64,000 bases of DNA from positions 124,001 through 188,000 of the forward strand of contig JAUJYZ010001005.1 in assembly GCA_033675265.1 (NCBI GenBank), given 5' to 3'. The DNA comes from Actinostola sp. cb2023. Lineage: Eukaryota > Cnidaria > Anthozoa > Actiniaria > Actinostolidae. The notes under the pieces were generated by a model. The model did not search any database. It was not told the origin of the DNA and was given only the letters and a program-made list of their open reading frames with translations. The translations under genes and the position numbers were made by a program. The first letter of the stretch is position 1, and each line of letters begins with the position of its first letter. Below are positions 7,525-39,679 of this stretch, piece after piece.

Positions 7525-9237
7525 CTCGTACCCAGAGCTCCTCGGTCGGTCGTTCCTTCTCCCTTCGGAGGCTCTGGTAACAGCCATTTCTACAATCTCG
7601 TCCCCAGAGCCTGCGTTACTTTCGACCAGCGGCGAAGAACGTAGGCTCTGGCATAATCCATTTTTGAGACAATTTGATTGGCTGTTCCATTTTAGAAACT
7701 ACGCACGCGCAAGATTCCGGAAATGGAATATATCCAATGAAAATTGAGTTGTCAAAACAACCCGGTGTCCCAACTTCCGTTGAAAACAAAAATTAACATT
7801 TTTCAACGGTTTCATTTGACATGTTATTTTCAATATGTCGCCTACCCTGCGAGCAGTCTTCTTTTAACCTCATGTCGCCTCGATCTGCAATAATAAAATA
7901 TCTAAGCACAGAGAAAAATCCAGTTTATCTAAGCTTATATGTATCTCGAAGTGTCTTGAAAAGTTTTCAAACGAAGCTCAAAATTTACACGAAGAGATGT
8001 CGATCGTAAATCTAATATTCTTTAGGCTAGCAACTGAAAGGCGGTGCCAATCGAGGTGCTTACGAAGGCGAAAGATTCGGCAAAAGAAATACATTTGAAG
8101 GAGAGACAACAATAACCAGAGAAGATGAAGATGATAGATTCAAATAATTAACTGATGTGTAAAGTAGACACGAGTAAATATAAACCCGTAGGAAGAACTG
8201 TTCGCGTATCCTTCTGCTGTAAAACCACTGCTTTTAATAAAGACTTCAGATACTGCACTTCTTTCACTGTTATATCTTCTTTACCAAGTGCTTTTAAAGC
8301 GTACTCTATTCCCTAATGAAACCTTTCGAACGATTCCACTGAAACCTGAATCGACAATTTGAATCGACAACAACCAACTGCCCAGCTAACTTGCGCATGC
8401 GCTCTAAAACCGGAAGAACAAGAAATCCTGTTCCCAAAAAATGGATTATGCCAGAGCCTACGTTCTCGTCGCTGGCCGAAAGTAACGCAGGCTCTGGAGA
8501 CGAGATTGCCATTTCTAGGCCGATGCTGATTGGTCCAAATGTCCGCGCATGCGCGACTTTCATTTGAAAATGCTCAATCGTGATTGGTCAATCTATAACG
8601 ATGATTGGAGCTTTTTAGAAGAGAATCCTCTGCGCATAAGGTATAACACACAAAGCTGACTCTTTTTCTAACGGGCTCAGATGGATTTTCAAAATGGCGG
8701 ACGGTCTGAATGGTGGTCATTGCTACTAATTTCTGCTAAGAAACTGCAATGATTTTACTGGTCACAAAGAAAAACACGCAAGTTTGGTTCTGTACTTGTT
8801 TTCGCTTCTCTTCTGTCGAGGCAAGTGATTAATTTACGCTATAAATTACCTCCTTCAACAACGGACTACGATGCCATTGAGACAGAACAAAATCAGTTGG
8901 CTTCGTTTCCTTTGCAAAGAAATAAGGATCCATATAAAATGTCGTGTTTTTGTGAATGTTAAAAGAGTACAGAACAAGATTGGTGGGGTGTATTTTCTTC
9001 CCTTCTCAGTAAATGTGCAGATAAAAGTACAATCTTGTAAAGACTAATAAATTATTTGCCATATCATGTTGTTGTATTTGAGTTATACCCTGTGTATCAT
9101 TTGCCCTATTTTTTCCCCAAGGCAGACTCAGTGAAGTCTATTGATGAGAAATATTAATAGGCTGTTGACATTGTTATTTTTGAGAGGGAAGCTAGTACAT
9201 TACCTCATGTAGAAGAGTAGTTATTTTAAAGCATTTT
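7525..9237. mobile_element. Repeat family M2, copy 1, interrupted by a younger foldback element
   Basis: The sequence 7525-7592 plus 8509-9237 matches, in inverted orientation, the uninterrupted copy at about 29190-29915. The outer end begins TCTCGTACCCAGAGCTCC and the inner part encodes a shared short reading frame (SWLRFLCKK region) of unknown meaning. The insertion 7593-8508 splits this copy. Confidence 0.8.
7593..8508. mobile_element. 916-bp foldback element with 9-bp target duplication
   Basis: Ends CAATCTCGTCCCCAGAGCCT and its reverse complement at 8508 are parts of inverted repeats of about 75 bp. CCATTTCTA occurs on both sides (7584-7592 and 8509-8517). The related copy at 29.19-29.92 kb lacks the insert, which gives a natural empty site. 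A 9-bp duplication would suit a Mutator-like transposase, but no such gene is present. Confidence 0.88.
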
Positions 9238-11233: not shown

Positions 11234-11402
11234 ACTTATAACTGTAGATCGCGACTTATAACTGTAGATCGCGACTTATAACTGTAGATCGCGACTTATA
11301 ACTGTAGATCGCGACTTATAAGTGTAGATCGCGACTTATAAGTGTAGATCGCGACTTATAACTGTAGATCGCGACTTATAACTGTAGATCGCGACTTATA
11401 GG
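11234..11402 (+). repeat. Element A left terminal array, 20-bp unit
   Basis: About eight copies of CTTATAACTGTAGATCGCGA, with two units carrying AAGTG instead of AACTG. The core CTTATAA is TATA-like. The array ends about 57 bp before the transposase ATG, so it could supply the promoter as well as transposase-binding sites; that role is inferred. Confidence 0.92.
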
Positions 11403-11458
11403 TGTGTATGCATATGGTATTCTGCAAATTCAGAACGAGGCTGCAGCATCCGTTCAAC

Positions 11459-12724
11459 ATGGCGACCATCTGGGTTTGCATCGTTGTTTACATTTCCATG
11501 TTTGCGGTTTCAAACGCTGTTCTTCCTCAATATATTCCAGTCTTAGTATACAGCCAGCATACCAGAGATTCTTTTATTGAGCAGTATTTTAAGTTAGGAT
11601 TTGATTATGCTGAAATATTAGCATTTCTTTGTATCTTTCATGGAATTCAGCTTAGTCTCAGACAACTGAAGCGAATTCTGTCTAGAAAAGGATTATCGAG
11701 ACGACTAACTCAAAGCAGTGCCAATGAAGTTGTGATGGCAGTGGAGCAGGAGCTAGCTAGAAGTGGAAGCTTGTTAGGTTACCGTCAGATGCATCAAAGA
11801 CTAAGATTGGACTACAGCTTGCGTGTGAACAGAGAAACTGTGCGCATTATATTGCGATCACTTGATCCCGAAGGAGTTCTTCTACGCTCTCGCCATAAAT
11901 TGCGAAGACGACAATATCGATCGAAAGGACCAAATTATATTTGGCATATCGATGGCTACGACAAACTCAAACCATTTGGTTTTTGTATTCATGGGGCTAT
12001 AGATGGCTTTAGTCGTCGTATCATGTGGTTAGAAATTGGTGCTTCAAACAATAATCCGCGCATAATTGCATCATATTTTTATGACTGTATCAAACAGATG
12101 GGTGGAGTTCCCTACATATGTCGTGGTGACGCGGGTACTGAAAACGTTAACGTGGCTGCAATGCAGCGTTTCTTTAGACGTGATGGGCAAGATGAATTTG
12201 CTGGTGAAAAAGGTTTTCTTTACGGACGCTCTGTTTCTAACCAGAGGATAGAAGCGTGGTGGTCATATCTTAGAAAAAGTGAAACAGATTGGTGGAGAAA
12301 TTACTTCAAGGATCTTCGAGATCAAGGTCTATATGATGATAGCGATCCTGTGCATGTCGAGTGCTTAAAGTTTTGCTATATGCCGCTTCTGAGAGAGGAG
12401 TTGCAACGAGTTGCTCAACAATGGAACCTCCACAAAATTCGCCCCACCACCAACGAATACTCGCCTCATGGACGACCGGACACTATTTACTTTCTGCCTG
12501 AAACTTTCAACACTACATCGTACCTTTATGCTGTACCTTCTGGAGATCTACAAGTGGCAAAAGACGTATGTTGTGAAGTACCTCATGACGACTTTGCTGA
12601 AACCTTTTCCGAACTCGCTAAATTGATTATCTCAGAAAACAACCTTCAAATGCCAACAGGCGACGTAAGTCAAGCCGAGCGACTCTACATTGACTTACTT
12701 GGCTTCATTGAAAACTTGTATTAG
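11459..12724 (+). CDS. Element A integrase-like DDE transposase
   Basis: The start chosen is the ATG at 11459, not the upstream ATG at 11402, because the homologue in element B begins at the equivalent AACATGGCG; this gives 421 residues. The N-terminal about 20 residues are strongly hydrophobic (IWVCIVVYISMFAV), then a helix-turn-helix-like region (AEILAFLCIFHGIQLSLRQL) and a basic linker. The rve/integrase-type core has D in HIDGYDKL (codon 184 counted from 11402), D in RGDAGTEN (243) and E in NQRIEAWW (284), a D-58-D-40-E spacing. This fold belongs to the retroviral-integrase/IS3-like group of transposases. The ORF is intact, so the protein could be functional. Assignment to a named eukaryotic superfamily (IS3EU or Ginger-like) is unverified. 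Confidence 0.88.
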   Translation: MATIWVCIVVYISMFAVSNAVLPQYIPVLVYSQHTRDSFIEQYFKLGFDYAEILAFLCIFHGIQLSLRQLKRILSRKGLSRRLTQSSANEVVMAVEQELARSGSLLGYRQMHQRLRLDYSLRVNRETVRIILRSLDPEGVLLRSRHKLRRRQYRSKGPNYIWHIDGYDKLKPFGFCIHGAIDGFSRRIMWLEIGASNNNPRIIASYFYDCIKQMGGVPYICRGDAGTENVNVAAMQRFFRRDGQDEFAGEKGFLYGRSVSNQRIEAWWSYLRKSETDWWRNYFKDLRDQGLYDDSDPVHVECLKFCYMPLLREELQRVAQQWNLHKIRPTTNEYSPHGRPDTIYFLPETFNTTSYLYAVPSGDLQVAKDVCCEVPHDDFAETFSELAKLIISENNLQMPTGDVSQAERLYIDLLGFIENLY

Positions 12725-12962
12725 AGAGCCTCCTTATAGTTGCCCCTCCCCTAACTCCCCGCAACCGATATATTTGCTTCTCATATTAGTAACCTTCAAA
12801 GTTTAGCTATGACACAAAATATGTTATTATTACCAAAAATCAATTATCAAAATCATTTTGTGGAATTATTAAAATAATGCATTAGAAAAAAATATCTGAC
12901 CTTTCCTGATTATTTGAGATTTTCATTAATGGAACAACAGTGAGATATTTTTTATACGTTAG

Positions 12963-13151
12963 TGTGGACACTCGAACCGTGAACACTTTTTTCGAACTTT
13001 CTATTACCTCATAGCCTCTCAAATGGAGCATTGACTTTAAATACACTTAGTGATCAAAATAAATCATTTTTCTGATCAATTTGCTCAATCGATAATTTAT
13101 ATATTTGTGTTAGAAAAAAAACTAAGTGTTCACGGTTCGAGTGTCCATACT
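12963..13151. mobile_element. MITE in element A, TIR GGACACTCGAACCGTGAACA
   Basis: Inverted repeats of about 27 bp (12964-12990 and 13123-13150) flank 130 bp of non-coding sequence. It lies downstream of the transposase gene, so it is younger than element A. Confidence 0.82.
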
Positions 13152-13617
13152 GTAAAACATCTAGTCTCTTGTAATAGTAACAAGTAAAACAATAACTAGA
13201 ACGTACACATGTACTGAAATCATTACGTTGCGCGGGGTGCGATATGGAGTAGAGCAAGTAACAGTCACAATCATGAAATAATATAACTTGAAAAAGTTGT
13301 AGAACACTGCTTTGTTCTGAAATGTGAAAGTTCACATAAATATAAACGTTAAAAATGAACAGGAAGTGAGTGAGGCAGTGACCTCAGCCACAACTGGTTA
13401 ACAGCAACTGTAGCCATTACCAAAACGAGCAGGGGACCGGGACCGTAAAACTAATTCAATAAGAAATTACTGAGCAAAAGTGAGCATCATTTTTATGAGA
13501 CTTTCTGAGAGATCAGATCAAACTTAGCTAGTCTTGAAAGTTTGGTGAGGGCATCAAAGATGTCTATTTTCCCAAACAAACTCTGTAAATGTTTGACGTT
13601 GTCCAGCCAAACCATAC

Positions 13618-13983
13618 AGTCACGTGACATTTAGGGGAGAAAAATAGAAATTTGCAAATGGGCTGATGGGTGTCTTTTATTTCAAAGTTCTTTTGATGTG
13701 AAATTGTTACGTTTAATGTGCTTAATAAGAATATGTCCGGTATGGTTGACTTTAGTGTCGTGCTGATGACATAATCGGCAAAATGGGTCACGTGACCATG
13801 TCATGAATTTCAATATTGTCATTTTTCTCATTAACACGAAACTAAAGTCAACCATACCGGACAGATTGTTATTATAAAGCTCATCGAACTTAACAATTTC
13901 ACATCAAAATAACTTTGAAATAAAAGACACCCATCAGCCCATTTACAAATTCCTATTTTTCTCCCCTAAATGTCACGTGACCA
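13618..13983. mobile_element. Foldback element in element A, ~135-bp arms
   Basis: Arms at 13618-13756 and 13845-13983 begin with GTCACGTGACATTTAGGGGA and its complement. They include CCCATCAGCCCAT and GTCAACCATACCGGACA. It is a near-complete inverted repeat with a short spacer. It lies between the 3' ends of the two element A genes. Confidence 0.85.
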
Positions 13984-14162
13984 CCGGAAGTCAACATTGT
14001 CCCGTTTAAAATATTAAGGAACCCAAGTGTGACTTATGGCATAAATTTCTATTTCATCGTTTTAAGCTGCATGGAGATATGTCGGAAAATGTGATTTTCC
14101 ATGAATCTGAAAAAGCCTATAGCCTTAACAGGCTTCAGCAGCCTTAACAGGCTTCAGCATGT

Positions 14163-17100
14163 TCAGCCATGCAAGTCCCAGTATTTGCAATCACGGAGGT
14201 AAAAGTCCATGTTGGTGCGCAGTTGTAGATAGGATTGATAATTCTTTGGGACAAGTAGCTTCTGGAAACAGGTAAACGACCTTGGTCGAACTGCTGCAGG
14301 GGGCATCACTTCCAGCTGTACTAAGATGCTGCGACCTGGAATTAGCACCTCCGTTGGTGTGCAAAAGCGGAGAAATTTTAGCACGATCTCATCACTGGCT
14401 CCTCTGATGTACCTTTCCAACCATCGGAATATCTGCCCTTCTTTGTGGTCGCTTGGAATCATGATTAACGATGCAATAACTTTCGATGCAGTTGGTACAC
14501 ACAGTTGGTATAGCAACACAATTTCCTCACTCTTCACGTCGTCCCAAAAAGAGCCCATCCCCTCTCTGATCTTATTTAGGCATAAATATGGCTTTGTTAC
14601 AAATTCTGTTGTCGCCACACTTAAGATGAGAGCTTCAACGTTCTCCGTGGTTGGTAACTGACGTATGTTGTAATCTTCCAGTATATCCATTAGCTGATTG
14701 GTTGGAAAAGGCTTGACCCCAGTTAGTGCGTTTGCAAGACATTCCCTTTCCTTTGGTGGAAAAATGAGCTTGAATGAGTTTATCATACAATCATCCGATA
14801 CATGGCCAAAAAGAGCTTGTTGGATAGATGCTTGCACTATGCGCACTGGAAATGTACCACACAACACAAACTGATGTGTGATAATTTTGCCAACAATGAT
14901 ATAATCTTCAGGACTCAGACTTGGCACAACTGGAATTGTAAACTCGATGTCTCCTTCACTATTATCGGACAAGAAACTATCCCAAAACAGTGAGTAGACC
15001 TCTTGCAGAACACCGTCTCCTGATGCTCTATCTTCTTCCATACCTGCAATAATGCGATTTCTCAAGATGCTGCCCTCTTTATATAATGACATCAGATCTT
15101 TTACAATGTTCTCTTTGTTCACCGTGATGTCAATGGCCTCATCCAAAGAATTAAATGCTGCTTCTCTTTTGGTGTTTATTGTATCATACGTGTTGTAATG
15201 AGGTGGTGGATCCTCTGTTGCAATGAATTCGTCATCTTCTAATAGGATCACAGGTAGCTCTTCCTGCACCAAATAACTTGTAGTTGGGCTTTCATCAACA
15301 TCAGCATATCTATGGAAAGTAAAAGAAACATTAAAACTGATTTAAAAAGGTGTGTCAGAGAAAAACTGTTCAGAAACACCTACATGTACATGTATGTGCA
15401 AATTAGTTGTGTACTTTAAATGTTGGTGTAAGGAAATGATATACTGATCTATTGTGTATGCTGAACTCTGATAACCATCATCTTAATTGCTTATAACCTA
15501 GTTAACAATAGTTTTATCTTAATATATTTTAAAACCACTGTAATTATTTGCCAAGGGTGCATGGCTAATCAAGTTTATTATTAACCTTACAACATATACA
15601 GCAATATGCAGAAATTCTGATCATTTTGACTAAAATACATATATATCAAAAACCTACTTAAAATTATGGGATGGCTACGCTGATATTTTTTTCATAAAGC
15701 CTCGCTGGCAGACAACTAGAAAAACATATCAGCGTAACCATCCCATAATCTAAAGTAGGTTTTTGATATATATATGTATTTTAGTCAAATGGATCAGAAT
15801 TTCTGCATATTGCTGTACCTGTACACATATGTTAATGTACTTATAAACAAACACATGTAGTACTTAATACATAAAATAATGCAATAATAGTTCATAGTAT
15901 TATAAATTATTATCTCGATTTGTGTGCATGCAGCTGGTAAAGTTACATACCTGTCTTTTTGTACTGTTGGAATTGACGTCGAACTGTCAAGTAAAAGGTT
16001 ATCTAGTTCAAAGTATTCATCAGCACTTCCAAAGCCTTTGAATATTATATCAGGATCATCAGACATTGGAACAGGCTTATCTGCAACTTCCATATACAGC
16101 AATGAATCAAACACAGGGTCAGCAGGTTTAACCATTTTACCAGGGGATAAGCACAAAATAAAATTATCTGGTTGCAATGCATGAGAGCCAACCCAATCGT
16201 AGACAGCAATCATTTGTTCACCCTTTTTGAAGTATCGACTGAGTTTACCCTTTGTCAGGTGGTTTACAGCAACCCTCACTCTAGGATCAGAGACAGGTTC
16301 GGAAGGTATTCTTGATGACCTTGTCATTCTTAATGCTTGCAGCCTCGTAATATCGTTTTCTTCTTTTTGCAGGAGCTCGTTGTTTTCCTTTTCATTGCGT
16401 TGGTCTTCCTCCAGACAGCGTTTAAAGTTATCATCCTGTTCTTTCTTTATCTTGTCTCTCTCTTCAGACGTACCAATAAGCAGATATTCATTTGCACCTT
16501 TCGTACTGGAACTTTGAGGGACTTCAGTTACTTCAGGTTCAGAAGGATCATCTTCCAATTCTTCTTCATGGGGCAAAGCGTATTTCATACGCCATGTCCT
16601 ACCTTTATTCTTGGATGGTCCTGGACTGTCAAACATAGGCTTATCAAAATCATCATCACTGTCACTTGATAAATCTTTGACAGCAGGAGAAGAACTAGAC
16701 TTTGATGTTAAGTAAAGTCTAGTCTGGGTCAATTTGAATTTCTCAATGTATTTCAGAACTGTGAATGGGACACTTTGATTATCTTCAGTTAAAGTTTCTG
16801 CTATGGTTTCTCCTTTGAAGCTAGCAAGGTCAAATACCATCTCACTGGCGACTCCATTGGAAGATAATCCATCAGGAAAGAAAAGCATTTTTCCTTCTTG
16901 GATTATGTCATCTTTGCTTGCATTGGAGGGCAAATCAATCTTTCGTGTGCCTCCTCCATTGTTCAATCGAACAGTGACGAAGCGGCTTTGATTGTGAATA
17001 TAGTGCATCCATCCAAGAATAATTTTCCTTGTTTTACGTGTTTTCACTGAGCTGGCTGAATGGCTTGCAGAATCCCTATCTTCAGTCTTTGTGTACTTCC

Positions 17101-18642
17101 TTTTCTCTTTTCCCTTCTTGAGCACCTCTATAAGTTTCCTCTTCCTGTCATCATAACCACAATCTGCATGCACCTGATCCTGTTTTGAGATGTGACGCTG
17201 GCAAAACGCCTTCAAAGCAAACACATCCCCTTTAGCTTCCAGTCCCAATTCATGAATGGCTTCATTGCTAGCAAAGGACACAGCTTCAACATCCATCTAA
17301 ATGTGATAGGAAAAAAAATCATCATAAACACATGCTCACAGCAATTTAAAATACTCAATGCCTACATTACTGTAAACATACTTGGGAATTTAAAAAAAAA
17401 TTGTACATTGTGCTTGTGCAATTATCACTGTTTCTGAACTGTGTTATTGATTTTGTTTATGATATACTGAATTTATTTGTGCTCAACCAAAATAAAATAA
17501 ATATAAACTTAAGAAAGAAAGGATAAACGGACGAATGGATGGACTGAATAACATGATCTAATTACAATGTTACAGATCCCAACTAACACAGTCTGAATGA
17601 CATATTCAACTTAGTACCTTCTCCTGTTCAAAATTGTTCAAGGTTGAACAATTCACTCCTCTCAATCGAAGAAAGTTCAACACCTGTAAATTAATAGTTT
17701 TATTTCTTAAATTAATCATACAAGAAGATCAAGATACATTTATGGTAGTTCAAATAGTGTCAAGTAAAGTTATTATTATTTATTATTTGCAGTACATGTA
17801 TCATATGGATGTAGTGCTTGTATTCAAAACGTTTTGCAAATGCAATGACTTATATTTAACAACATATAAGCTTACACATATAGGTCAGCGAAAACATAGC
17901 AAGAACCGCAGCATTTTATACTGGTAAATCAAGTACAGTAGAACAAGTAAGGTCTTCAAATTTGTGATAATTTTGCAGACTGATTGGTAAGCTGGGCCAC
18001 CAAGAATGCCAATAAGTCCAAAATGACCACCAAAATTGTCATGCAAGGTTGTCGTTTGATGTCTACAGACGGCTAGAAAAAGTTATATCAACTGAAATCA
18101 TACGATCTATATTTAAGGACTAAAACGTACATGTGAACGACATGACTTCCAATCGAGTTAGAGTCCTTCTCAGACGTTTTAGTTGGTTCACTTTAAAGTG
18201 CAACTAAACCCTGTGAGATTGTTTAAAAACTGAAATATATTCAGGATACCGTAGTTGTTGGGTTCAGTATTCATTGAATACGGAATTTTAAAACAATCTC
18301 ATTAGGGGTCTAAAACCAACCAAAACGTCTTCGAAGGAGGCTACAATCGAGTATATGATCGTTACAGTTAACATATAATTCATCAACTGAATACAATTTG
18401 AGTCATCAGCCTGTATCTGAATTTAATCATAACAAACTTTCGAGAAACTTTCTCTTCATCAGGTTGTATTCAGTCAAGACTAAAATTGTCAATATCAGTG
18501 AAACATAGAGCTTTTTTCACATACAAAAGAAGAGAAGCGGACACACCAAGTTTTCACGTTCCTCTTCTATAAATATAGATTGCTGTAAGTCAACTAACTT
18601 GGTAAAACTTACGTCGTCAACGTCGCCATTGCTTCCCTCCAT
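14163..18642 (-). CDS. Element A SAM-UBX-HECT ubiquitin-ligase-like protein, four exons
   Basis: I joined exon 1 (18642-18613, MEGSNGDVDD, donor GTAAGT), exon 2 (17683-17618, 22 codons), exon 3 (17296-15951, donor GTATGT) and exon 4 (15309-14163, acceptor CCATAG); the frame stays open for 862 residues. Exons 2-3 form a SAM-like domain (FLRLRGV..ELGLEAKGD). Exon 3 then has an acidic stretch, a charged helix (EEQ/KEEQDDNFKRCLEEDQ type, as in UBX proteins) and a UBX-like ubiquitin fold (VRVAVNHL..YDWVGSHAL). Exon 4 resembles a HECT domain C-lobe, ending RPRSFTCFQKLLVP with Cys at the usual catalytic position (about 35 residues from the end). HECT ligases transfer ubiquitin through that Cys; activity here is inferred. 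Exon phases match element B. Confidence 0.82.
15601..15816. mobile_element. Foldback element in the HECT-gene intron of element A
   Basis: Arms of about 93 bp (15601-15693 and 15721-15816) start with GCAATATGCAGAAATTCTGA and its complement and include GGGATGG.TACGCTGATAT. It lies wholly inside the 641-bp intron 15310-15950, so it does not break the coding frame. Confidence 0.85.
18171..18338. mobile_element. Small MITE in intron 1 of the element A ligase gene
   Basis: AGACGTTTTAGTTGGTT at 18171 is inverted as AACCAACCAAAACGTCTT near 18336. A second inner symmetry (GAGATTGTTTAAAA / TTTTAAAACAATCTC) supports one hairpin element of about 165 bp. Confidence 0.72.
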
Positions 18643-18716
18643 GTTGTGACTGTGAGAAGTGCACCTTCTTCACGTGGCCTTGCCGCTGACCCAAAATATC
18701 GCTCATATTTACAGTT

Positions 18717-19127
18717 AGTTATAAGTCGAGATCTACAGTTATAAGTCGCGATCTACACTTATAAGTCGCGATCTACAGTTATAAGTCGCGATCTACAGTT
18801 ATAAGTCGCGATCTACACTTATAAGTCGCGATCTACAGTTATAAGTCGCGATCTACAGTTATAAGTCGAGATCTACAGTTATAAGTCGAGATCTACAGTT
18901 ATAAGTCGCGATCTACAGTTATAAGTCGAGATCTACAGTTATAAGTCGAGATCTACACTTATAAGTCGCGATCTACAGTTATAAGTCGAGATCTACAGTT
19001 ATAAGTCGAGATCTACAGTTATAAGTCGAGATCTACACTTATAAGTCGCGATCTACAGTTATAAGTCGCGATCTACAGTTATAAGTCGAGATCTACAGTT
19101 ATAAGTCGCGATCTACAGTTAGTTCAC
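18717..19127 (-). repeat. Element A right terminal array, 20-bp unit
   Basis: About twenty copies of AGTTATAAGTCGCGATCTAC, the complement of the left array, with GC/GA variation (TCGCGAT or TCGAGAT) spread among units. Exon 1 of the ligase gene starts 75 bp away and is transcribed away from the array. Confidence 0.93.
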
Positions 19128-19262
19128 GATTTACATTTATGTATATTTTTAAAAGAAAAGTGCAAAAATAAGAATAACATTTTGAAGCGAGGAATAAAAT
19201 AATAATAATTAGTTTGCACGAAAAAAATATATTGTATTACAAGTGGCCCTAACGGGCCACCG
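19128..19262. repeat. Element A right outer terminus
   Basis: This tail of about 135 bp (with AACATTTTGAAGCGAGGAAT) ends in a terminal hairpin, GTGGCCC-TAAC-GGGCCAC, followed by CG. The same tail recurs at 28977-29116 after another array, which fixes it as a family end. Confidence 0.8.
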
Positions 19263-19378
19263 TAGTTATCCCCTTGATTATATGTTATAAATAGAGGTTA
19301 TTAGTCGGCTAAGCATCGAATACGACTGTGTATTTTTACGAGTCATTTGGTATTTTTGCCAAAATACAGCCGTATTTT

Positions 19379-19590
19379 CGGTGGCCGGTTAGGGCCATGC
19401 ATAATTTCTTTTTTGTTGCTCTTTTTTTATAGATTTTGTAATTTTTCTTATTTGTTTTTACCAATTTCGTGATTTTTGGAAAGTTCTTAAATACAAAAAT
19501 ATCACGATATCTCGACTTATAACTCGAGATCTCGACTTATAACTCGATATCTCGACTTATAATTCGATATCTCGACTTATAACTCTTATA
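19379..19590 (+). repeat. Element B left terminal inverted repeat and array
   Basis: About 120 bp of unique terminal sequence (with TTGTTGCTCTTTTTTTATAG) is followed by about four units of CTCGACTTATAACTCGATAT. The transposase ATG is about 68 bp further on, the same spacing logic as in A. Confidence 0.9.
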
Positions 19591-19657
19591 ACACTGTTTT
19601 GAAACCTTCAACAAATGCTTCTTCTGACTTTGAAGTACCGCTGGCTCACAAAACAAC

Positions 19658-20923
19658 ATGGCGGCGTTCTGTAGGTTGGTTGTGCTAAGCGCGGTCATGT
19701 TTTGGGCTATTTGCGGAGCTTTACCTCCTTATATTCCCGTTATAGGAGGCTTACAAAACGATCGTGATTCTTGCATTGTTCGGTACTTTAACCTAGGTTT
19801 TGGGTATGCTGAAATACTTGGATTTCTTTGTGTTGTCCATGGCATCAAGCTGAGTCTCCGTCAACTGAAGCGGATCTTATCCAAGAAAGGTTTAAAGAGA
19901 AGGGGAATTGCGCACGATGCTCAGCACATAATATCTGCACTTGAGCAAGAAATGTGGAGGAGTGGCGGCTCATTAGGCTATCGTCAGATGCAGTCAAGAC
20001 TCAGACTTGATTACGGCATCTCAATTGACAGAGAGACAGTTCGGAAGAGCCTGGCGTTGCTTGATCCCGAAGGAGTTCGTAGACGCTCTCGTCACAAGTT
20101 GAAAAGAAGAGAATATGTTTCAAAAGGACCGAACTATATATGGCACATAGATGGCTACGACAAACTTAAACCCTTTGGGTTTTGTGTGCATGGGGCTATA
20201 GACGGTTTCAGTCGCCGTATTCTTTGGCTAGAGGTAGGAGCCTCGAATAACAATCCTCGTGTCATTGCTTCGTACTTTCATGAGTGTATCAGGCAGTTGT
20301 GTGGAGTTCCCCTCATCTGCCGTGCCGATGCAGGAACTGAAAATTGTTTAGTTGCAGCAATGCAGCGTTTCTTCAGACGTGAAGCAAGTGATGAATTTTC
20401 TGGAGAAAAAAGCTTTTTATATGGGCGTTCGGTTTCAAACCAAAGAATAGAGGCATGGTGGTCACATCTTCGAAAAACAGATACAGATTGGTGGATTAAT
20501 TATTTCAAAGATCTGAGAGACCAAGGGCTTTATGATGATAGCAATCCTGTACATGTTGAATGCTTAAAGTTTTGTTATATGCCTCTTCTTAAGGAAGAGT
20601 TGGAACGTGTAGTACAACAATGGAACTTGCATAAGATTCGCCCATCTACAAATGAACATTCGCCTAGTGGTCGTCCAGATACTATATTCTTTCTCCCCGA
20701 AGCATTTAATTCCACGTCATATCTTCAAACTGTACACTCATTGGACTTAGTGGCAGCAAAAGATGCATGTTGTGAAATTCCTGAGGATGCTTCCTTTGAA
20801 ACTTTTTCAAAACTTGCTCAAATATTAATAAGTGAAAACAATCTTGAATTACCAGATAGTGATATTAGTAAGGCTGAGCGTCTATACATAGATCTGCTTG
20901 GACATATAGAAAACCTGGTTTAA
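19658..20923 (+). CDS. Element B integrase-like DDE transposase
   Basis: The 421-residue intact ORF starts at AACATGGCG. It is clearly homologous to the element A protein over its whole length but differs at many positions, so A and B are separate subfamilies rather than recent duplicates. The N-terminus (LVVLSAVMFWAICGALPP) looks like a signal peptide, which is odd for a nuclear enzyme and is shared with A. A helix-turn-helix-like segment follows. The catalytic acids are D165 (HIDGYDKL), D224 (RADAGTEN) and E265 (NQRIEAWW), spacing 58 and 40, identical to A. No premature stop is seen, so this copy could supply transposase in trans. Confidence 0.88.
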   Translation: MAAFCRLVVLSAVMFWAICGALPPYIPVIGGLQNDRDSCIVRYFNLGFGYAEILGFLCVVHGIKLSLRQLKRILSKKGLKRRGIAHDAQHIISALEQEMWRSGGSLGYRQMQSRLRLDYGISIDRETVRKSLALLDPEGVRRRSRHKLKRREYVSKGPNYIWHIDGYDKLKPFGFCVHGAIDGFSRRILWLEVGASNNNPRVIASYFHECIRQLCGVPLICRADAGTENCLVAAMQRFFRREASDEFSGEKSFLYGRSVSNQRIEAWWSHLRKTDTDWWINYFKDLRDQGLYDDSNPVHVECLKFCYMPLLKEELERVVQQWNLHKIRPSTNEHSPSGRPDTIFFLPEAFNSTSYLQTVHSLDLVAAKDACCEIPEDASFETFSKLAQILISENNLELPDSDISKAERLYIDLLGHIENLV

Positions 20924-21154
20924 AGAGAGAATAAACTGAATATGTCATGCACAACAAGTGTAAAGAACTTGCAAGGTCGGTCGCATGCAGTTGTACAGTT
21001 GTAAGTAAAAATTTTGTGGTGTAAATTGGCCATATTTCAAAGCTGTAGATATGTTTGTACAATGTCATTTGCACAATTAAGTTATTTATATGTTATATGT
21101 GTCAGCTGTGGTACTGTCATAAAATAAAATAAAAAACAAAAATGAAAATTTTCA

Positions 21155-21277
21155 ACTTTTCGATTGGATTTGGATTTTTGTTTTTTCTGATCGACCAATC
21201 ATCATTCAGAAAGCTCTGATCCCTTCAGTGATTGGGCATGGTCAATCAGAAAAATCTAAAATCCAATCGAACGTTTC
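21155..21277. mobile_element. MITE with TTTCGATTGGATTT ends
   Basis: TTCGATTGGATTTGGATTTT and ATCTAAAATCCAATCGAACG are inverted, with further inner pairing (CTGATCGACCAATC / GGTCAATCAG). It lies just downstream of the element B transposase. The rest of 20930-22260 holds no gene that I can support. Confidence 0.7.
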
Positions 21278-24200
21278 AAATTGTCAGTCACGATACAAGA
21301 ATTATTGTCTCTTTTTTAAGATAGAGTCACAGGGTAAAAATATTACATATAAAATATCATTTTATTGAACAGTTTTAATAACAAACATGGACCTATTGTC
21401 CAAGAAACATCAATCACATTTTGACATTAGCAATTTTTGTTTGGTTTTGTGTTTACATTCAAGTAATCATCTGAAATTCTCTTGTATATTTAAAATGTCA
21501 ACTATATAAATTAATGCTCCAATTAAAAATCAATGTTTGATTTAGGATCATCTGTAATTCCCTTGTATATTTAAAATGTCAACGATATTTAAATTATCTG
21601 TGATTTTCTGGTATATCAACTACTACCAATTTCATTCAACTATTAAGCATGAAAATATTTGCGGGTTGTTTTACGTTTCAAACATGACACTAAACGTTTA
21701 CTTTGACTTGAGCATCAATCACTGCTTTCTTTCATCATTTTATCAAAAATTAAATGCTTAAGACCTTTGTCTAATATTTTTCAGTACGATTAACTTCTTC
21801 CAAATTTATTTACTTCAAAAATCTCCATTCATGATAAAAAACAAACAACAAATGAAATAGAAACGTACCTGTCTGGTTTTCCGACCAAATGTGTTGAATT
21901 GCTGACAAAGTGTCGTGTTTGAAATGTAAACAAACATGCAAATAGTTTAATACTTAATGGTTGAACGAAATTGGTAGTACATGTATATAAATGTTTCAAT
22001 AAAACAGTAACAAATTGAACGCAAATACACATCATCCGCTTGCCTCTGATCTAAGTTTTCCCAATGTGGTCCTCTTGAGGGCTTCATTATTATTTTTTGT
22101 TTCCAATGTCTTAATGAGAATGAAATGAAAGAATTTTCACCTTGAACAAATAATCTTATCCTCCAATAGCCAATTTTTGGGCAAGCAAATAAGGTCTATA
22201 ATAAAAAGTGTTAAGAAAGGCAAGTTTTTTTTTCAACAGTTAGTTTCTTTAAAATGTTCAAAGTTCTCAAGCATCACTCAGGTCCCAGCACTTTGGATTT
22301 TGAATATACATGTCCATATTTTTCCTCAGGTGAGAGAAAGACACATAATTTGTTGGTAAAACAAGGATCCCAAAACAGGTACGAGACTTTGGGCGAATGG
22401 CAGATGGTGGCATCAACTGAGTTTGTACAGCAATTCGGCAGTTAGGTCTTATGATGTCTTGTGGCGGTGCAGAAACGCATAAAATTGACAAGCACTTCAT
22501 CACTACAAATCCTGATATACCTTTGTAGCCATCTGTGGATTTGGTCATCTTTGGGGTTTTTTGGATCCATATACAAATGGTCGATGACACGTTGAACTGT
22601 GGGCTGACAAAGATTGTAAATGGATGTGATTTGCCCCGCTGTCACATCATCCCAGAATGAGCCCATACCTTTGCGTATATTGAGCAGGCAAAGATATGGC
22701 TTCTGCACAAACTCATTCCTTGCTATTTGAAGAACAAGGGTTGATAGGTTTGCAGGTGATGGCGCCATGCAGATGTTGTAATCATCAAGTATTTCCATTA
22801 TGTCCCCTTGAGGGAATGGTTTCACATTTTTAAAACCGTTTTCAATAATGTCTCTTTCCATTGGAGGCAGACGTTTCGTGAAGGATGATACCAGGCATTC
22901 AGTGGACACTTCTCCAAGCACTGCTTGCTGGATTGATGATTGAGATATATTCGCACTGGGAAAGTAGAGCACTGCACAAATTGGTGGGTAATAATTCTAC
23001 CCATGCTGACATAGTCCTCACAATTGAGATGAGGCGTTAATGGGATGGTAAATTCTGTTTCACCTGTGGTGTTGTTTGCCAGCATGTTATCCCAAAATAC
23101 TGAGTATGCTTCTCTGAGTACTCCACTTCCAACTGTATCTTCCTCATCTGAGAACTGCATTACTAGCTCACTCTTTGTAATAGTCTCATCCTTGTATAGT
23201 TCAATCAGTTCTTTTACTATGTTCTCCTTTGAGATGCAAACGTTCTTCGCATCACCAAGTGCATCACACTCTCTTCTCGTTTTTTCTTTCAATTCATCAT
23301 ATAACTTGCTATGTGTATTTTCCTCTTCAGTAAGGGGTCTGTCCTCTTCCATCAATACTTCTGGAGGCTCATTAGTTATCGTCACAGTACTTTGTAGTCA
23401 TGAAAAAAGAAGAGATATAAGTTACTAATAACTAATTGATATGTCTGTACCCATGTGTGGACAGACACCTTCTGTTCCAGTGGCAGAATGATGATGTGAA
23501 GTTAGGCTGTTTTAATTCATGTATTCCCCGCTGCAAAATCTAGACTAGTATCACTAGTAGGCACTAGTATGGCTGAGTAGGTCTGGGTGTTTTTTTTGGG
23601 TAGACAATACAAACAAACATTGAGACTTGTGCTGTAGTTGTGCTAAAATATTGTTAAAACCCGTAAATTACTGCATTTCTTGTTCCTAAACAACTTTGGA
23701 AATGCTTCTAGACTACAGTGCTATAGGATACTGATAGATATCTCACTGAAAAAGCAATATATACATGATATAAGACACAAAATCCGCGAAGCTCTCACGA
23801 GTAACACTGCCACTTGATACTAATACCTTATGTCATTGAAAACTCTTTTAACAAAAAAAGTTTCAAGTGAGGCCTTAAGCGACTAATCAAACTTAACTGT
23901 TTAACAGAAAATTCAAGCATGTCTATATATATCTACCTAGTACTGGGAAAAGAAGGGAGGGTATCATCATTTGAGGACATCTCACTTGTACCAGCAAACC
24001 CTTTAAATGACACTTCTGAATCTTCACTGCAGATTGGCATTGGGTCATGTGATCCTTCCATGTAAAGAGTGCAGTTTTCTACACTTGTCACTGGTTCAGA
24101 AGGCTTGATTGACTGTCCTTGGAACTGGCAAAGACTGAAGTGCTCAGGGTAAAGAGCAAGAGAGCCCACCCAGTCATAAACAGCAAGTATCTTTTCTTTG

Positions 24201-25556
24201 GTGGAAAAGGAACGGATGACTTTTCCCAAGGAGATATGATTCACAGCTATCCTTACTTGAGGAAGACCTGGATCCGGTTGTGGTGGAACCCTGTGTGATC
24301 GTGCTGAACGGACATCTTGCAAACGCTCTTCTTCCTTCTGCTCCTTCTCTTTGACTTGTCTTTTTTCATTTTCCTTGCGTCTGTCCTCATCTAATGATTG
24401 CTGGAACAACTGCTCTTGCTCATCCCTTAATTTCTTCCTCTCCTCTGAAGATCCAATGAGTTGTGTTGATGTATTGTCAAATACCGAATACAGTAGCTGG
24501 TCTTCATCGTCACTTTCAGGTACATGTAGATCTTCACTTGACTCCTCTGTATCAAAACTGATAACTTGGATATCATCATCATCAGGTTCCTGCATAAGGT
24601 CTTCATCATCAAAGGAAAAAAGAGGTGCGAATTTAGATGTCAGGTAGAGTCTTATTTGTGTCAGCTTGTTTTTTTCAATATATGTTTGTACAGTGAATGG
24701 CTCAGTGCGGTCATCAATACTATCTCCCTTGAAATTAGCAATGTCAAAATCCATGTCTATGGCATCTCCATTAGGTGATTTTCCATTTGGGAAGAATAGT
24801 TTCTTGCCTTCTTCAATAAGCATTTCTTTATTATAGTCACACCCAACATCTAATCTTCTAGTTCCTCCTCCATTGTTTAACCTCACTGCCACAAACCTCT
24901 TCTGACCTTGAGAAAAGTGCAACCATCCAAACGATATCTTCCGAGTTTTAGGTTGTGAGCACTCACTTTTGGAACTTGAGGACTTCCCATCAGCTTAATT
25001 TATATTTTTTATTTTGCTTTCCATTCTGTATTTCCTGCAATAGTTTTCTCTTCCTCTCTTCATAATCTGTTTTGTCAACTGCTTTGACAGTCACAGTCTT
25101 ACTGGTTGTTGGCTGGTGCCGCTGACAAAAAGCTTTTAACGCGAAAATATCACCCTTTGCTTGCAGCCCCAATTCTGTAAGGCACTCATTTGTGGCACAT
25201 GACACTGCTTCAACATCCATCTATAACTTAAAGAAAAAAATGTTTGTACACTTGGTAATAAAATATCCTCAATCAATATAGAACAGTTTGCAAGCAAGAC
25301 ACCCATATGACCATTCGTTTACTTGGCGGTTAGTGAGGATCAGTTAGTTGATAGTTGGCAATGAAGCTTTCAAATTCCGGTCAGCCAAGTGAAAAGTTTA
25401 AAAAAAAACGTGTTACATGACAAGATGACTGTTATCTTGTCTGTCTGCTTCTGTTAGAAGTTAATACATGTAGATATAATGTATAACTTGGTTATATGAA
25501 CCATCTAAAGATTAGGGTTACAGGCTTACTTACTTACTTACACACTCGATGACATA

Positions 25557-25597
25557 GTGGCTACTCTCTTCTAAGAAGAGTAGCCACAAAAATGATC
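25557..25597. repeat. Short perfect hairpin GTGGCTACTCT
   Basis: GTGGCTACTCT and AGAGTAGCCAC pair around CTTCTAAGA. It lies in an intron of the element B ligase gene, just after a short TTAC repeat. Confidence 0.6.
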
Positions 25598-25849
25598 ATC
25601 CAATTGGTGTTTATAGTGTTCAGAATATCAATGACATTGGCCTCAAATAGACACTGAATTGTTAAAAGCAATTAGCAATTTAAAACTTGTGATCCATTCA
25701 TCAAAATAGTTTTAGGTACAATATTGTACTGTTAGAAAAAGATTAGTATTAATATTAATATTTTTATTCTTATGATATTTTAGTGCAAACTCTTGTATAT
25801 TATATACATAGTCAAAGCAGATCTATTGTTCACATGTCTCCTATATACA

Positions 25850-25936
25850 CAGGGCTCAACACTAACAGCAATCTGCTAGTCTCAGACTAGTGAACATTTG
25901 CTGTGGGCTGCATGGTAAAATTAGTGTTGAGCCCTG
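25850..25936. mobile_element. 87-bp MITE with CAGGGCTCAACACTAA ends
   Basis: CAGGGCTCAACACTAA at 25850 is exactly inverted at 25921-25936. CAGGG ends are common in hAT-type elements, but an 8-bp duplication is not clear. It lies in the intron between exons 2 and 3 of the element B ligase gene. Confidence 0.8.
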
Positions 25937-27208
25937 ATACACAGAAGATTTAAATAGTTCTATTGTTAAAATGGAATACCTTTTCATTTTTAAAATTTGA
26001 TATAACAGCTGATGGCACACCTCTTCCTTGTAAAAAGCTTGAAACCTAATAAAAGAGATGATGAATATCAATAAGTAAGATCAGGAAAACTATAAAAGAA
26101 TTTAAATGCCATTATTATTATTGTTTTAACAAGGATACAATCAAAAATCAACATCAAATAATTATCATCAAATCCATATTGTAATAGAATGATGAATTTC
26201 AAATGTTTGGTTCTAAATAGATTTTATTGGTCATGTATGAGGGATGTAGTACTCTTATTTTAAGTTCGCCATACAATTCTTTGTATTTTTTCTGGGGTCA
26301 TCTGCGTGACATGCATGAAAAACAAAAATGTAGGGAAAACTAAAAAAATGAGACTACTTGCTTCCTAGATCAGCTACATCCCTCAATTAAATCTTTGGAT
26401 TTATAGAGAATTATTTCACATTTATTTCACATTGCATCCTTGTTAAAATGTGAGGTTTTATCTACTCATCAAAATGACAGCCCAAACCTAAGCCTAATGT
26501 CAAGGTCACAATGAAATCTTATCCAAGTCGATAAAATTGTCAAATACTATCACGCAAGTACTGAATAGGCCATTTTCCATGCTATTTTTTCCAGTCACGG
26601 AAAATAGTATATACAAAGAATAAAAAGCCATGAATTTGCAATTGAAGGGGAAAAAATAAGGTGAACTGAACATTTTTAGCGATTAAAGAGACTACGTTGG
26701 CAAAAAGTAACTAGAAAACGTTCAAACTATAAAATTTAATGCTCATTCCAAAAATTAGAAGAAAATTGGGGTGTCCCGTGCTTGTTTTCAAAATAATGAG
26801 CATTGGATGAATGACTGCTTACGAGTTTGTGAGGCAAAAATCCACATGACGTCTTTAGAGAAAAAAATACAGATCGCAAAATAATAGTTGTCACGACCAC
26901 AATTACACAGATATCAGCCAAAGATTTATTCTGCATAATGGCATAAACATGTTTGATGTAATATGTAAAAAATACCTTCATTCTGGACTTTTGTACCGCG
27001 ACTCCCCAAAAAAGTCTCCTCAAGTCGAACAAAAATTGCGACAAAAATTCATGTTAGAATAACTACGTTCTTCTACAAATTCGATATATTTGAGATATTT
27101 AGTATTTTTTTCAAATAAGTGCAAAACAAGTACATAGTCCTGTGCAAAAATGAAGGGTTTTTAGTCATCAAATGTGTCAAAACAGCGAAAATAGTGTCAA
27201 CATCAAGG

Positions 27209-27287
27209 AAGCCATCTAGGAAAATGAAGATCGCTTTGCATTATGGTATCGACCATAATGCAAAGCGGTCTGTATTTTCCAAGATGG
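27209..27287. repeat. Hairpin with ATCGCTTTGCATTATGGT arms
   Basis: Arms of about 34 bp, from CTAGGAAAATGAAGATCGC to the central ATCG, are nearly perfectly inverted. It lies in intron 1 of the element B ligase gene. Confidence 0.72.
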
Positions 27288-27901
27288 CGACCCTCCCTCT
27301 GCAGGCAACCAAAACATCTTGTCACGTGAAATAGGGAATAAAATGATTTATTCAATAAAAAAAAACTTCAAAATATCACTGAGTTATTACTATTACCTTT
27401 ATGAATGTCCTGGTTAATTTTCAGGGCGATCTGAGCGTTTTTAAAAAACTATAATTTATGTAAGCTTCGGAACGAATTTATGACCTTCCGATACCAGTGA
27501 CCCGCTCTAATTTATCCTATGCTTTGAGCTATTGGAAATAAACCTCTTAATATGCAAAAGATTGTACATAATAGGAAACGGAGCACCAATTTAATCAAAT
27601 GAGCAGACCCAAAGACACCATGTGATTACCGGCACCTAGTTCGTTACTCCACAGTAACAGAAGAACTGATGCAGACTAACAGGAAGGATGCCTGATACAA
27701 AGTTCACAACAACAACTTTGTATGGATGCACAAAGTGGTGGATAAACAGAAGATCTACAGCAGAAAACGTTAAATTAACTTACCTCATCAATTCCACGAC
27801 TAACCGCCATCTTGTCAAGCTCGTAACCCAGAATCGCCCGCGGCTTTTATGTGGCAAGCAAAACCGCTGACCAGACAACTTGTGGGCGTAGGTTATTCCA
27901 A

Positions 27902-28330
27902 CACTTATAAGTCGAGATCTCGAGTTATAAGTCGAGATCTCGAGTTATAAGTCGAGATCTCGAGTTATAAGTCGAGATATCCAGTTATAAGTCGAGATAT
28001 CCAGTTATAAGTCGAGATATCCAGTTATAAGTCGAGATATCTAGTTATAAGTCGAGATATCGAGTTATAAGTCGAGATATCTAGTTATAAGTCGAGATCT
28101 CGAGTTATAAGTCGAGATCTCGAGTTATAAGTCGAGATATCGAGTTATAAGTCGAGATATCGAGTTATAAGTCGAGATCTCGAGTTATAAGTCGAGATAT
28201 CGTGATATTTTTGTATTTAAGAACTTTCGGCAAAAATCACGAAATTGGTAAAAACAAATAAGAAAAATTACAAAATCTATAAAAAAAGAGCAACAAAAAA
28301 GAAATTATGCATGGCCCTAACCGGCCACCG
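27902..28330 (-). repeat. Element B right array and terminal inverted repeat
   Basis: About fifteen units of AGTTATAAGTCGAGATCTCG (27902-28207), in which GAGATCTCG alternates with GAGATATCC/GAGATATCG variants, are followed by the complement of the left 120-bp terminus. Ligase exon 1 lies 92 bp inside the array. Confidence 0.92.
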
Positions 28331-28334
28331 TAGT

Positions 28335-28803: not shown

Positions 28804-28823
28804 GCTCATGCAGTAAATATCAC

Positions 28824-29116
28824 TTATAAGTCGCGATCTACAGTTATAAGTCGATATCTACAGTTATAAATCGCGATCTACAGTTATAAGTCGTGATCTA
28901 CAGTTATAAGTCGCGATCTACAGTTATAAGTCGAGATCTACAGTTGTAAGTCGAGATCTACAGTTATAAGTCGAGATTGACGATTTGCATTCATGTATGT
29001 TTTTAAAACAAAAGTGCAAAAATAAGATATAACATTTTGAAGCGAGGAATAAAATAATAATAATTAAATTGCACGAAAATAAATAAATTGTATTACGAGT
29101 GTCCCTGACGGGCCAC
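28824..29116. mobile_element. Solitary A-type right end (array plus terminus)
   Basis: About eight units of AGTTATAAGTCG(C/A)GATCTAC (28824-28977) run into a tail matching 19128-19262 and ending GGGCCACCG. No transposase or ligase gene precedes it, so it is a decayed or internally deleted relative of element A. Confidence 0.85.
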
Positions 29117-29189
29117 CGTAATTTCTACATCTTTCAAAAGCTAAAATATATTAAAACATATGTATTGTATATGTACAATACTACTGATA

Positions 29190-29915
29190 CACGAAATATG
29201 CTGAAATATTTCTCATTAATAGACTGCACTGAGTCTGCCTTGGGGAAAAATAGGGCAAATGATACACAGGGTATATTAAACTCAAATACAACAACATGAT
29301 ATGGCAAGTAATTTATTAGTCTTTACAAGATTGTACTTTTATCTGCACATTTACTGAGAAGGGAAGAAAATACACCCCACCAATCTTGTTGTGTGCTCTT
29401 TTAACATTCACAAAATCACGACATTTTATATGGATCCTTATTTTTTTGCAAAGGAAACGAAGCCAACTGATTTTGTTCTGTCTCAACGGCATCGTAGTTC
29501 GTTGTTGAAGGAGGTAATTTATAGCGTAAATTAAACACTTGCCTCGACAGAAGAGAAGCGAAAACAAGTACAGAACCAAACTTGCGTGTTTTTCTTTGTG
29601 ACCAGTAAAATCATTGCAGTTTCTTAGAAGAAATTAGTAGCAATGACCACCATTCAGACCGTCCGCCATTTTGAAAATCCATCTGAGACCGTTAGAAAAA
29701 GAGTTAGCTTTGTGTGTTATACCTTATGCGCAGAGGATTCTCTTCTAAAAAGCTCCGATCATCGTTATAGATTGACCAATCACGATTGAGCATTTTCAAA
29801 TGAAAGTCGCGCATGCGCGGACATTTGGACCAATCAGCATCGGCCTAGAAACACCAGAGCCTCCGAAGGGAGAAGGAACGACCGACCGAGGAGCTCTGGG
29901 TACGAGAATGGTCAA
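29190..29915. mobile_element. Repeat family M2, copy 2 (uninterrupted)
   Basis: This is the inverted match of 7525-9237 without the 916-bp insertion, from AATATTTCTCATTAATAG to GAGCTCTGGGTACGAGA. It has the same short shared reading frame as copy 1. No transposase domain is visible, so it looks non-autonomous. Confidence 0.82.
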
Positions 29916-30217: not shown

Positions 30218-31571
30218 CTACAGTGGATCTTGATTAACCCGTTTCTGTAGATTCTCCGCAGGAAATGCACATATAAAGCGTTTGAGTTCATTCATGTCCT
30301 GCCAGGGGTTGATCACATTTGGCACTCCATCTGAGATGAGTCTAGCAGACGCGCCGTCTGGGTTTAAAACTTTGGCCAGCAGTAGATAATACAGGGCAGT
30401 GTGTCTACGCGCCCAGCCAACATGGTCCATAATCTCTGACAGGTCTGCACCCTTCAGTGCTAATGTAATGGCACACCCAGATCTAAAGCCATGCAATGTT
30501 TCACCATCATCCGCACTCATATATTTTAAATACAACTTTAAACGCGCCTCCGCAGCAGCAGAACTCATTGGGGAATCCTGAATCCCTCCATTAGGCGTTG
30601 TAGGCCGGAATAAGTAGCCACGTGTTAGATCAATCTTCATCTCACATGCCACTTCCATGTATCGCTCAATACCCCGAATGGGGCATATGGTGGTCTGTGG
30701 ATTCCTCCGGATCCCAAAGACGTTTTCGTCCCCATCCCTCAACGTCTTGTCCCATACATGACTAAATAAAAAAACCATCGTCGTTGGGAAAACGTAGGAT
30801 TTCGGGGACTTTGCTTTGGCCGAGATCGCCTGGGCGATCCCCACTAAAGAAGGCTGTCTTAAAATAGGCCTGGTCTCGCGCAATAATGAAACGCTGGGTC
30901 GGAGTCGGTGCGTTCTCCAATGCTCGTTCGAGATATGATGAAAGCTTCGTTAATTTGTCCACAAAGAAGGGGGTGGCTTGTCTGGGTGTTATCCGAGCTT
31001 GCAACTGCTCTGCTGTCACCACACGCAGGTAATCTTTAATGGACTTGTCAGCTGCAGGATTACCCAGCCCTAAACGTTTGTCCCATTCACCGTCCCTCCC
31101 AATAGCGTGAAATATAGACCGTAGCTTTCCGATGTACGAGTCCACAGTTTTGTACGACAGTCGTAGCGGGCACTCACATGGATGTGTACCTCGCTGGCCA
31201 AGAAATGTGCAACCGTTCCTGTGGACCTGGGTTTTGCCCTTCCTGTCCTTAAAAATTAGAAAACGACAGAGGTCACGCGGTGTAACAGTCGCTAAGGTTA
31301 CCCATCCTGGAAGAGCCAAAAAACCTTCAAGTTCCCTTTGAAGGGAGTCTTTCTGCCTGGAGTAACTGGTCGCTTTATCAAAATTCTGAAACTGGTTAAG
31401 CCGTTCATCTATTTGCTCGAGGTCAACCTTCAGGGCTCTATCCCTATCAACACAAATAGCTTTCCTTTTGTAGCCACACCGTTGACAAAACCTAAAATCG
31501 CTATCATTCGCGTGACTGCAGATTGGACACCTTACAGAGAGAATAAAGAGCTTTGCGATCACAGGGAGGTC
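30218..31571 (-). CDS. DIRS tyrosine recombinase (frameshifted at a T run)
   Basis: The reading frame opens exactly after the splice acceptor TTTTCCATAG and has no ATG, so it is probably reached by splicing. The N-terminus is a zinc-ribbon-like CPICSHANDSDFRFCQRCG. The recombinase core shows the first Arg in GDRPGDLGQ, then HGFRSG (H-x-x-R) and the nucleophile Tyr in HVGWARRHTALYY. These belong to the tyrosine-recombinase family, which integrates circular DNA intermediates in DIRS elements. At 30769-30780 the frame shifts across a run of seven T (minus strand), separating the first Arg from the rest. This is either a one-base mutation, a sequencing error or a programmed slip. Confidence 0.8.
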
Positions 31572-31807
31572 CTATGGAAAACAAGAAAGACAACACAAGT
31601 GTTCAACATTCATTCACAGATTTAATCGACTAGTTGCATGTTGCTGTGGTTGTACAGGTGTAATATTTCCTAATTATCTTACAAAGGAGTATCATTCATT
31701 TCCTAGTTTTTGGGGGAGAAACATGTAGTCATGTCCTTTATCAAGATTACCAAATAAATACTAGCAATTGAGAGTTCACAGACCCAATGGTGGCATCTGT
31801 ACAACAT

Positions 31808-38800: not shown

Positions 38801-39679
38801 TTCTAGATCTTTGTATTTGTCTTTAAATATTTCAATGTTGTTGCAAAGGTTATCAGTAAACGTTTTGTCACTTAGAAGCGAATTATTGAATTTCCAAAAA
38901 CCGGGTCCTCTCCTGTGTTTGAAATGTTCAGTTTGCAGGTGGATAAAAACAGCGCTGTGGTCTGAGTTTGGTGCATAGGAAATATAACTATTTTCGGTGT
39001 ATTTTTTAAGATACTTTGATATGAGAAAATAATCTAGCCTGCACTGGATTGTCGCAGACTTATTTCTCCAAGTGAATTGTGTTTTGTTTGCGTTTAAAAC
39101 CCTCCGTATATCTACAAGTTGAAATTGATTAATAATCTTTTGGATTTTGTTTATTACGGAATGTTTTTGATCTGTCGACACGCCTCCTTCTTTATCTTCT
39201 GTTGCTAATGCACAATTAAAATCGCCGCCTATTATAATGTTTTCACCTAGATATTTTTCTAAACGATTGTGCAATTCATCAAAGAACACGTTTTGTTTAC
39301 TTGCGTTATTGGGGCTGTATATATTTACAAAGATCGTTGGATTGCCTTCTATTTCTGTCTCTAAAATAATTAATCGACCACTCTCGTCCTTAATCCAATT
39401 CTTAATATTGATGTCGCAGGCAGGATTGATTAAAATCATTACGCCTCTACTGTGTTTTGTTCCGTGACTGTAATAAACACGCCCACCCCATTCAAGATTA
39501 CAAATTTGTTCTTCAGCTTCGGAACTATATGTCTCTTGAAGAAAAGCTAATTGTATGTTTTTTTTGCGCAACCAGGAAAAAATCTTTTTTTTGTTCTTTT
39601 TTTTTGTTTCGCTTAGCCCCCTGACATTTACAGAAATGCATTTTAATTGAAAAGGGTTTAATTTTGTATCATGACCCAT
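35869..39679 (-). pseudogene. LINE ORF2: AP endonuclease and reverse transcriptase, broken
   Basis: The endonuclease block (39679-38735) shows ISVNVRGL, QETYSS, NIIIGGDFNCAL and APNSDHSAVF, the Asn/Asp/His signature of APE-type nucleases. The RT continues in other frames: NKSPGTDGFSAEFYR and NWRPISLLNTDYK (38601-37888), then FVDFRKAFDSIEW, GVRQGCPLSGPLF and catalytic CQYADDTTCF (37891-37202). The C-terminal part (36600-35869) has a CPFCDCERHTTSHFFVDC zinc-like motif. The breaks near 38.65, 37.89, 37.23 and 36.6-37.05 kb make the copy non-functional. Confidence 0.87.

Follow-up and report, generated by a model that had tools for sequence, protein, structure and literature searches.

Two neighbouring elements in a sea anemone genome, here called A and B, are probably damaged copies of a multicopy DNA transposon family of the IS3EU type, whose usual cargo would be a transposase gene and, converging on it, a second gene (gene 2) for a putative ubiquitin ligase (E3) with ubiquitin-like, UBX and HECT domains. 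Both lie in the window, by which we mean the whole stretch of 64,000 nucleotides analysed (C948:124001-188000 of the 424 Mb assembly of Actinostola sp. cb2023), A at 11234-19264 and B at 19377-28332, with a gap of 112 bp between them. In both, a DDE transposase is encoded on the plus strand and faces a spliced second gene that runs towards it on the minus strand. This layout had been proposed in an earlier note on the sequence and was confirmed here, as both transposases match PF24764 (E 9e-37 for A and 1e-37 for B) and a convergent, spliced gene 2 was recovered in each element.

To follow the two genes beyond the window, the genome was searched with the A transposase, and 96 of 1045 first-look candidate places were scored; the linkage counts given here cover those 96. 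A transposase was taken as paired when a HECT match lay within 12 kb of it. On this basis 45 of the 96 were paired, all 45 of them convergently and none in another orientation, with pairs at 19 of the 20 top-ranked places. Pairing reached 34 of 42 among transposases at least 54% identical to that of A, and 10 of 32 at 45-53% identity. Twenty stretches were fetched, covering 18 scored places (ranks 2 and 4-20), and a downstream gene 2 on the opposite strand was found in 17 of these 18. C678 departs from this: it is an inverted duplication, flanks included, with two transposases and no gene 2, and may be an assembly artefact. Across the genomic copies, gene 2 is linked to the transposase in many divergent lineages.

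Two copies that hold both genes, C1452 (5998 bp) and C1542 (8758 bp), have TACGG..CCGTA ends with at least 24 of 24 terminal bases matched, and are bounded by perfect 6-bp target duplications, GTTCTC and AGAAAG, respectively. Nine end contexts were compared; only these two gave 6/6, and in four of the nine the ends could not be placed. C286 (6004 bp) has perfect TACGG..CCGTA ends without a duplication. The same ends were found in C1386 and C1053, each with a 6/6 duplication (GATAAA and GCTTTG), and the right ends of A and B conform to the TA..TA pattern. Moreover, arrays of units of about 20 bp flank many of the 20 copies, the unit sequences differing between copies. The earlier note had raised IS3EU as a possible name for the family, and that assignment fits the termini, the 6-bp duplications and the IS3/IS481-like DDE transposase. 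Its proposal that a mobile element carries its own E3-like protein is likewise supported by the convergent pairs and by the two elements in which exact duplications enclose both genes.

The features of A and B, by window position, are the following.

11234..11400, plus strand: A left subterminal array, made up of 8.4 units of 20 bp and in inverted orientation relative to the right array; outer end missing.
11402..12724, plus strand: A transposase frame, stop to stop, matching PF24764; candidate ATGs at 11408 and 11459.
14163..15309, minus strand: A gene 2 exon 3, HECT domain with the catalytic-cysteine motif (HECT match; splice model as in QZH41_015851).
15951..17296, minus strand: A gene 2 exon 2, with a half-SAM-like start, ubiquitin-like domain and UBX (splice model, profile matches).
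18613..18642, minus strand: first exon of A gene 2, 10 codons long and starting 75 bp inward of the right array (splice model).
18717..19121, minus strand: A right subterminal array, made up of 20.2 units of 20 bp.
19122..19264, minus strand: A right terminus, ending ..GGCCACCGTA (end comparison).
19377..19585, plus strand: B left terminal inverted repeat, which includes 4.1 array units (inverted match to 28122-28330).
19634..20923, plus strand: B transposase frame, ATG at 19658, matching PF24764; 71% identity to A.
22279..23379, minus strand: B gene 2 HECT part, frame-broken (tblastn pieces in two frames).
23957..25220, minus strand: B gene 2 exon-2 part, frame-broken near 25000 (tblastn pieces in two frames, one internal stop).
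27784..27810, minus strand: candidate first exon of B gene 2, unannotated and placed by comparison with A; its start is 95 bp inward of the right array.
27905..28332, minus strand: B right array with 14.9 units, together with the right terminus, which ends in ..GGCCACCGTA (tandem array, end comparison).

The right end of A is preserved up to 19264, as are its two 20-bp arrays, the left one inverted relative to the right with a match of up to 98%. The left end of A is truncated: the left array sets in abruptly at position 11234, and an outer terminal inverted repeat was not detectable to the left of A (the best score was 35, against shuffles with a mean of 33 and a maximum of 45). B has a terminal inverted repeat of 209 bp at 98.6% (19377-19585 against 28122-28330), and its end sequences are TTCGGTGG and CCACCGTA, with TT in place of the left TA. 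The ends of B are real, but it has no intact gene 2, as tblastn matched this gene in three reading frames with an internal stop. No convincing target duplication was seen at B, the 6-bp duplications having been established in other copies rather than in A or B themselves. The left array lies 8 or 59 bp from the transposase ATG in A and 73 bp in B. Since the start of each gene in A and B lies a short way inward from the array at its end of the element, both promoters are probably located in the terminal repeats. The array on the gene 2 side is the longer one in A (20.2 against 8.4 copies) and also in B (14.9 copies at 27905-28202 against 4.1 at 19505-19585). Beyond B stands a lone third right end of the A type (28821-29120, 89% to the A right end), and a 648-bp inverted repeat at 97% flanks both elements (8512-9155 and 29205-29851).

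Gene 2 of A consists of three exons on the minus strand (18642-18613, 17296-15951 and 15309-14163), open throughout. The product, which had been put at 862 residues, has 840 amino acids once spliced and equals NCBI QZH41_015851 letter for letter. The Pfam HECT profile (PF00632) matched nine of nine family members at E <= 0.1, with a best value of 5.2e-11, and the predicted structure of the A product shows a full bilobal HECT fold. The presumed catalytic cysteine lies in the C-lobe (C806 of P0001) and is invariant in the nine members. For UBX, a profile comparison matched FAF1 at E 1.7e-11; the Pfam UBX profile matched seven of nine members at E <= 0.1 (best 0.017), every single match falling below the gathering score. 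A ubiquitin-like fold stands ahead of the UBX domain. Of the SAM-UBX-HECT order first proposed, HECT and UBX both stood by profile and structure, while SAM is faintly suggested by the Nematostella relative alone (SAM_2, E 0.012; its 16.2 bits fall short of the 20.5 cut-off); the A product gave no Pfam SAM match and, by eye, seems to hold the second half of SAM only.

Of 19 copies that hold both genes, 17 have the HECT cysteine aligned, the alignment being shifted in C1292 and the C-lobe not found in C816, and the UBX tryptophan was present in 17, all but C1470 and C1147. Identities across these copies ranged from 48 to 100% for the transposase and from 19 to 100% for gene 2. The two identity matrices correlate (rho 0.27, 8 of 5000 permutations), in a kind of test that relatedness inflates, and synonymous sites of gene 2 are saturated in most parts of the A/B comparison. 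From its sequence and predicted fold, the gene 2 protein may well be an active E3. It could also have ceased to be a ligase and act as a structural partner, for instance by binding ubiquitin or the transposase, and two observations would suit such a role: the A HECT matches (6e-4 as exon, 2.4e-3 as whole protein) lie under the Pfam gathering score, and the loop that contains the cysteine is not the same in all copies (TCF, TCS, TCG, ACS). Still, retention of the cysteine column in proteins that are otherwise so divergent makes this explanation improbable.

Several observations weigh against the overall explanation favoured here, a transposon family with an E3 that would act through UBX and p97. 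Both are damaged, A in its left end and B in gene 2, and the linkage is known from one genome. Among transposases less than 45% identical to that of A, a detectable HECT was paired in 1 of 22. When the A HECT exon served as genome query, 107 matches were obtained and merged to 92 loci, 46 of which pair; for the other 46, no scored transposase lies inside the 12-kb limit, and these may face unscored candidates, or be solo remains or host genes. The p97-binding loop of UBX domains is an FPR motif, of which, by eye, FP is kept in P0002, P0003, P0007 and P0008, and the loop is not intact in A. Finally, the second gene of C1053 (L031 3701-4987), an element with an exact target duplication, had no HECT in the frames listed. 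The earlier note had named as a disproof either the lack of any HECT or UBX match, or transposase copies without the second gene where that gene occurs in the host's own right; neither was borne out in the main, yet the divergent transposases and the HECT loci with no scored transposase nearby run the other way. These loci, together with a Nematostella relative annotated as an ordinary gene (LOC116601884), could mean that gene 2 belongs to the host, or forms an independent multicopy family, and is merely found near transposases. We consider this very improbable given the fixed orientation of all near pairs, the exact duplications that enclose both genes in two elements and the persistence of the linkage in many divergent lineages.

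Three of the 51 unpaired transposases (C1386, C276 and C1053) were opened, and in all three a convergent second gene was present, with a clear HECT in C276 (PF00632, E 2.7e-11), a probable one in C1386 and none seen in C1053. C1386 has GATAAA on both sides, and its second gene, which faces the transposase, is HECT-like by eye with a weak match to E6AP (E 0.029); it gave no Pfam HECT match and an hhalign probability of 8%. Inverted repeats in C1386 (L029 593-783 and 4840-5030) overlap the starts of both frames, so that the transposase and the second protein share an N-terminus, which is zinc-ribbon-like (Pfam E 1e-4 to 2e-4, below the cut-off). In C1053, with GCTTTG on both sides, the second gene has a ubiquitin-like domain (E 2e-10 to P0002), and its C-terminal part appears Ig-like by eye. 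HECT is thus the commonest form of the second gene seen in the family.

The transposase of A matched the NCBIfam models for IS481 (E 1e-7) and IS3 (E 2e-6), both below cut-off, and lacks an HHCC domain, as IS3EU/GingerRoot transposases do. The residues D184, D243 and E284 are invariant in 14 of 14 aligned transposases, and the A/B comparison gave a ratio of nonsynonymous to synonymous divergence (dN/dS) of 0.09 with dS saturated. The start of most of these transposases resembles a signal peptide, an unexpected second and separate puzzle. In A (11459-11520) and B (19658-19720) this is a hydrophobic N-terminal segment. The best 120 of 1861 database matches, with A and B, were reduced to 65 non-redundant sequences with a long enough N-terminus; 62 of these have the segment, which occurred in 11 of 1300 control windows, and in 57 the stretch from the segment to the following conserved motif is free of methionine. 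A candidate cleavage motif was present in 82 sequences, of which 57 obeyed the -3/-1 rule where 9.1 were expected; many of the 82 are near-identical and some, including B, were mis-anchored. Of 20 genomic copies, 17 passed the threshold, C1379 fell just under it (1.58), and C1442 and C1542 lack the segment. A literature search on secreted or membrane-held transposases gave a single unrelated paper.

If the E3 is active, its target may tentatively be sought in the transposase of its own element. The E3 would ubiquitinate the transposase and the UBX domain would recruit the unfoldase p97/VCP, pulling the transposase from a stable complex, either on joined DNA ends or in a membrane. We favour this target for three reasons: p97 recruitment is the usual role of UBX domains; removal by an unfoldase is a requirement for at least one DDE transposase, MuA, which ClpX strips from joined DNA ends; and the C1386 lineage gives the transposase and the second protein the same N-terminus.

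A further variant is that the transposase is a precursor routed to the endoplasmic reticulum and held latent by its signal peptide, and that the UBX-HECT protein would free it to the nucleus through ubiquitination and dislocation by p97. The signal-peptide-like start and the missing downstream methionine in most relatives suggest this. It would be a one-protein version, carried by a transposon, of the HECT-plus-Cdc48 route by which Rsp5 and Cdc48 act on the membrane-held transcription factors Spt23 and Mga2. However, C1442 and C1542 keep the UBX and HECT residues without the N-terminal segment, and C276 has a HECT without it, so that such release cannot be the general role; we regard the variant as unlikely.

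With an active E3, host silencing factors come close behind the own transposase as a possible target, as gene 2 diverges faster than the transposase and fungal relatives carry TET cargo. Here the E3 would ubiquitinate host chromatin or small-RNA silencing factors, which would be degraded so that the element stays expressed. Faster divergence might be expected of a protein in conflict with host targets, and the TET/JBP dioxygenases of fungal IS3EU have been proposed, in the available part of that account, to counter methylation (PMC12730594). Weak constraint outside the catalytic parts would also fit the divergence. We hold this scenario to be rather unlikely when taken as a whole.

The window also contains other retroelements recognized by domain: a reverse transcriptase with a tyrosine-recombinase domain at 30218-34063 (DIRS-like), a LINE-like set at 35869-39691 and a Gypsy-like set at 56837-61027.

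An active E3 would mean that a transposon family with dozens of copies in one animal genome comes regularly equipped with a ubiquitin ligase of host style, and would make it testable how a DNA transposon might manage its own transposase or blunt silencing by ubiquitination. The arrangement suggests that the elements use protein tagging to help their own spread. The family may also account for part of the HECT-like genes annotated as ordinary genes in cnidarians, and the signal-peptide-like transposase start is simple to test. No HECT gene in IS3EU was found in the literature searched, an earlier Repbase description being possible.

In folds and motifs, the gene 2 product resembles cellular HECT ligases (HUWE1, UBR5, the NEDD4 family) and the UBX domain of FAF1, whereas its identity to HECT structures is about 15% and its order of ubiquitin-like, UBX and HECT domains was matched by no solved protein in the structure searches made. 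Ubiquitin-ligase domains are already known in DNA-transposon proteins: RING domains are reported in RAG1 and two Chapaev subgroups, and the RAG lineage also has two genes per element (PMC4411706, in part). RING is, however, another E3 class and is fused to the transposase there, in contrast to the separate HECT gene of Actinostola. With IS3EU/GingerRoot the elements share the IS3/IS481-like DDE transposase, TA..TA termini and 6-bp target duplications; they differ in their long subterminal arrays of 18-22-bp units and in the convergent HECT-type gene, neither of which is described in the accessible portion of that source (PMC10045372). The fungal IS3EU elements, in the sections available, also have TAYGG..CCRTA termini, 6-bp duplications and a second gene opposite the transposase; their extra genes encode an alpha-kinase, in that opposite position, and a TET/JBP dioxygenase (PMC12730594), where the Actinostola elements carry a UBX-HECT protein.

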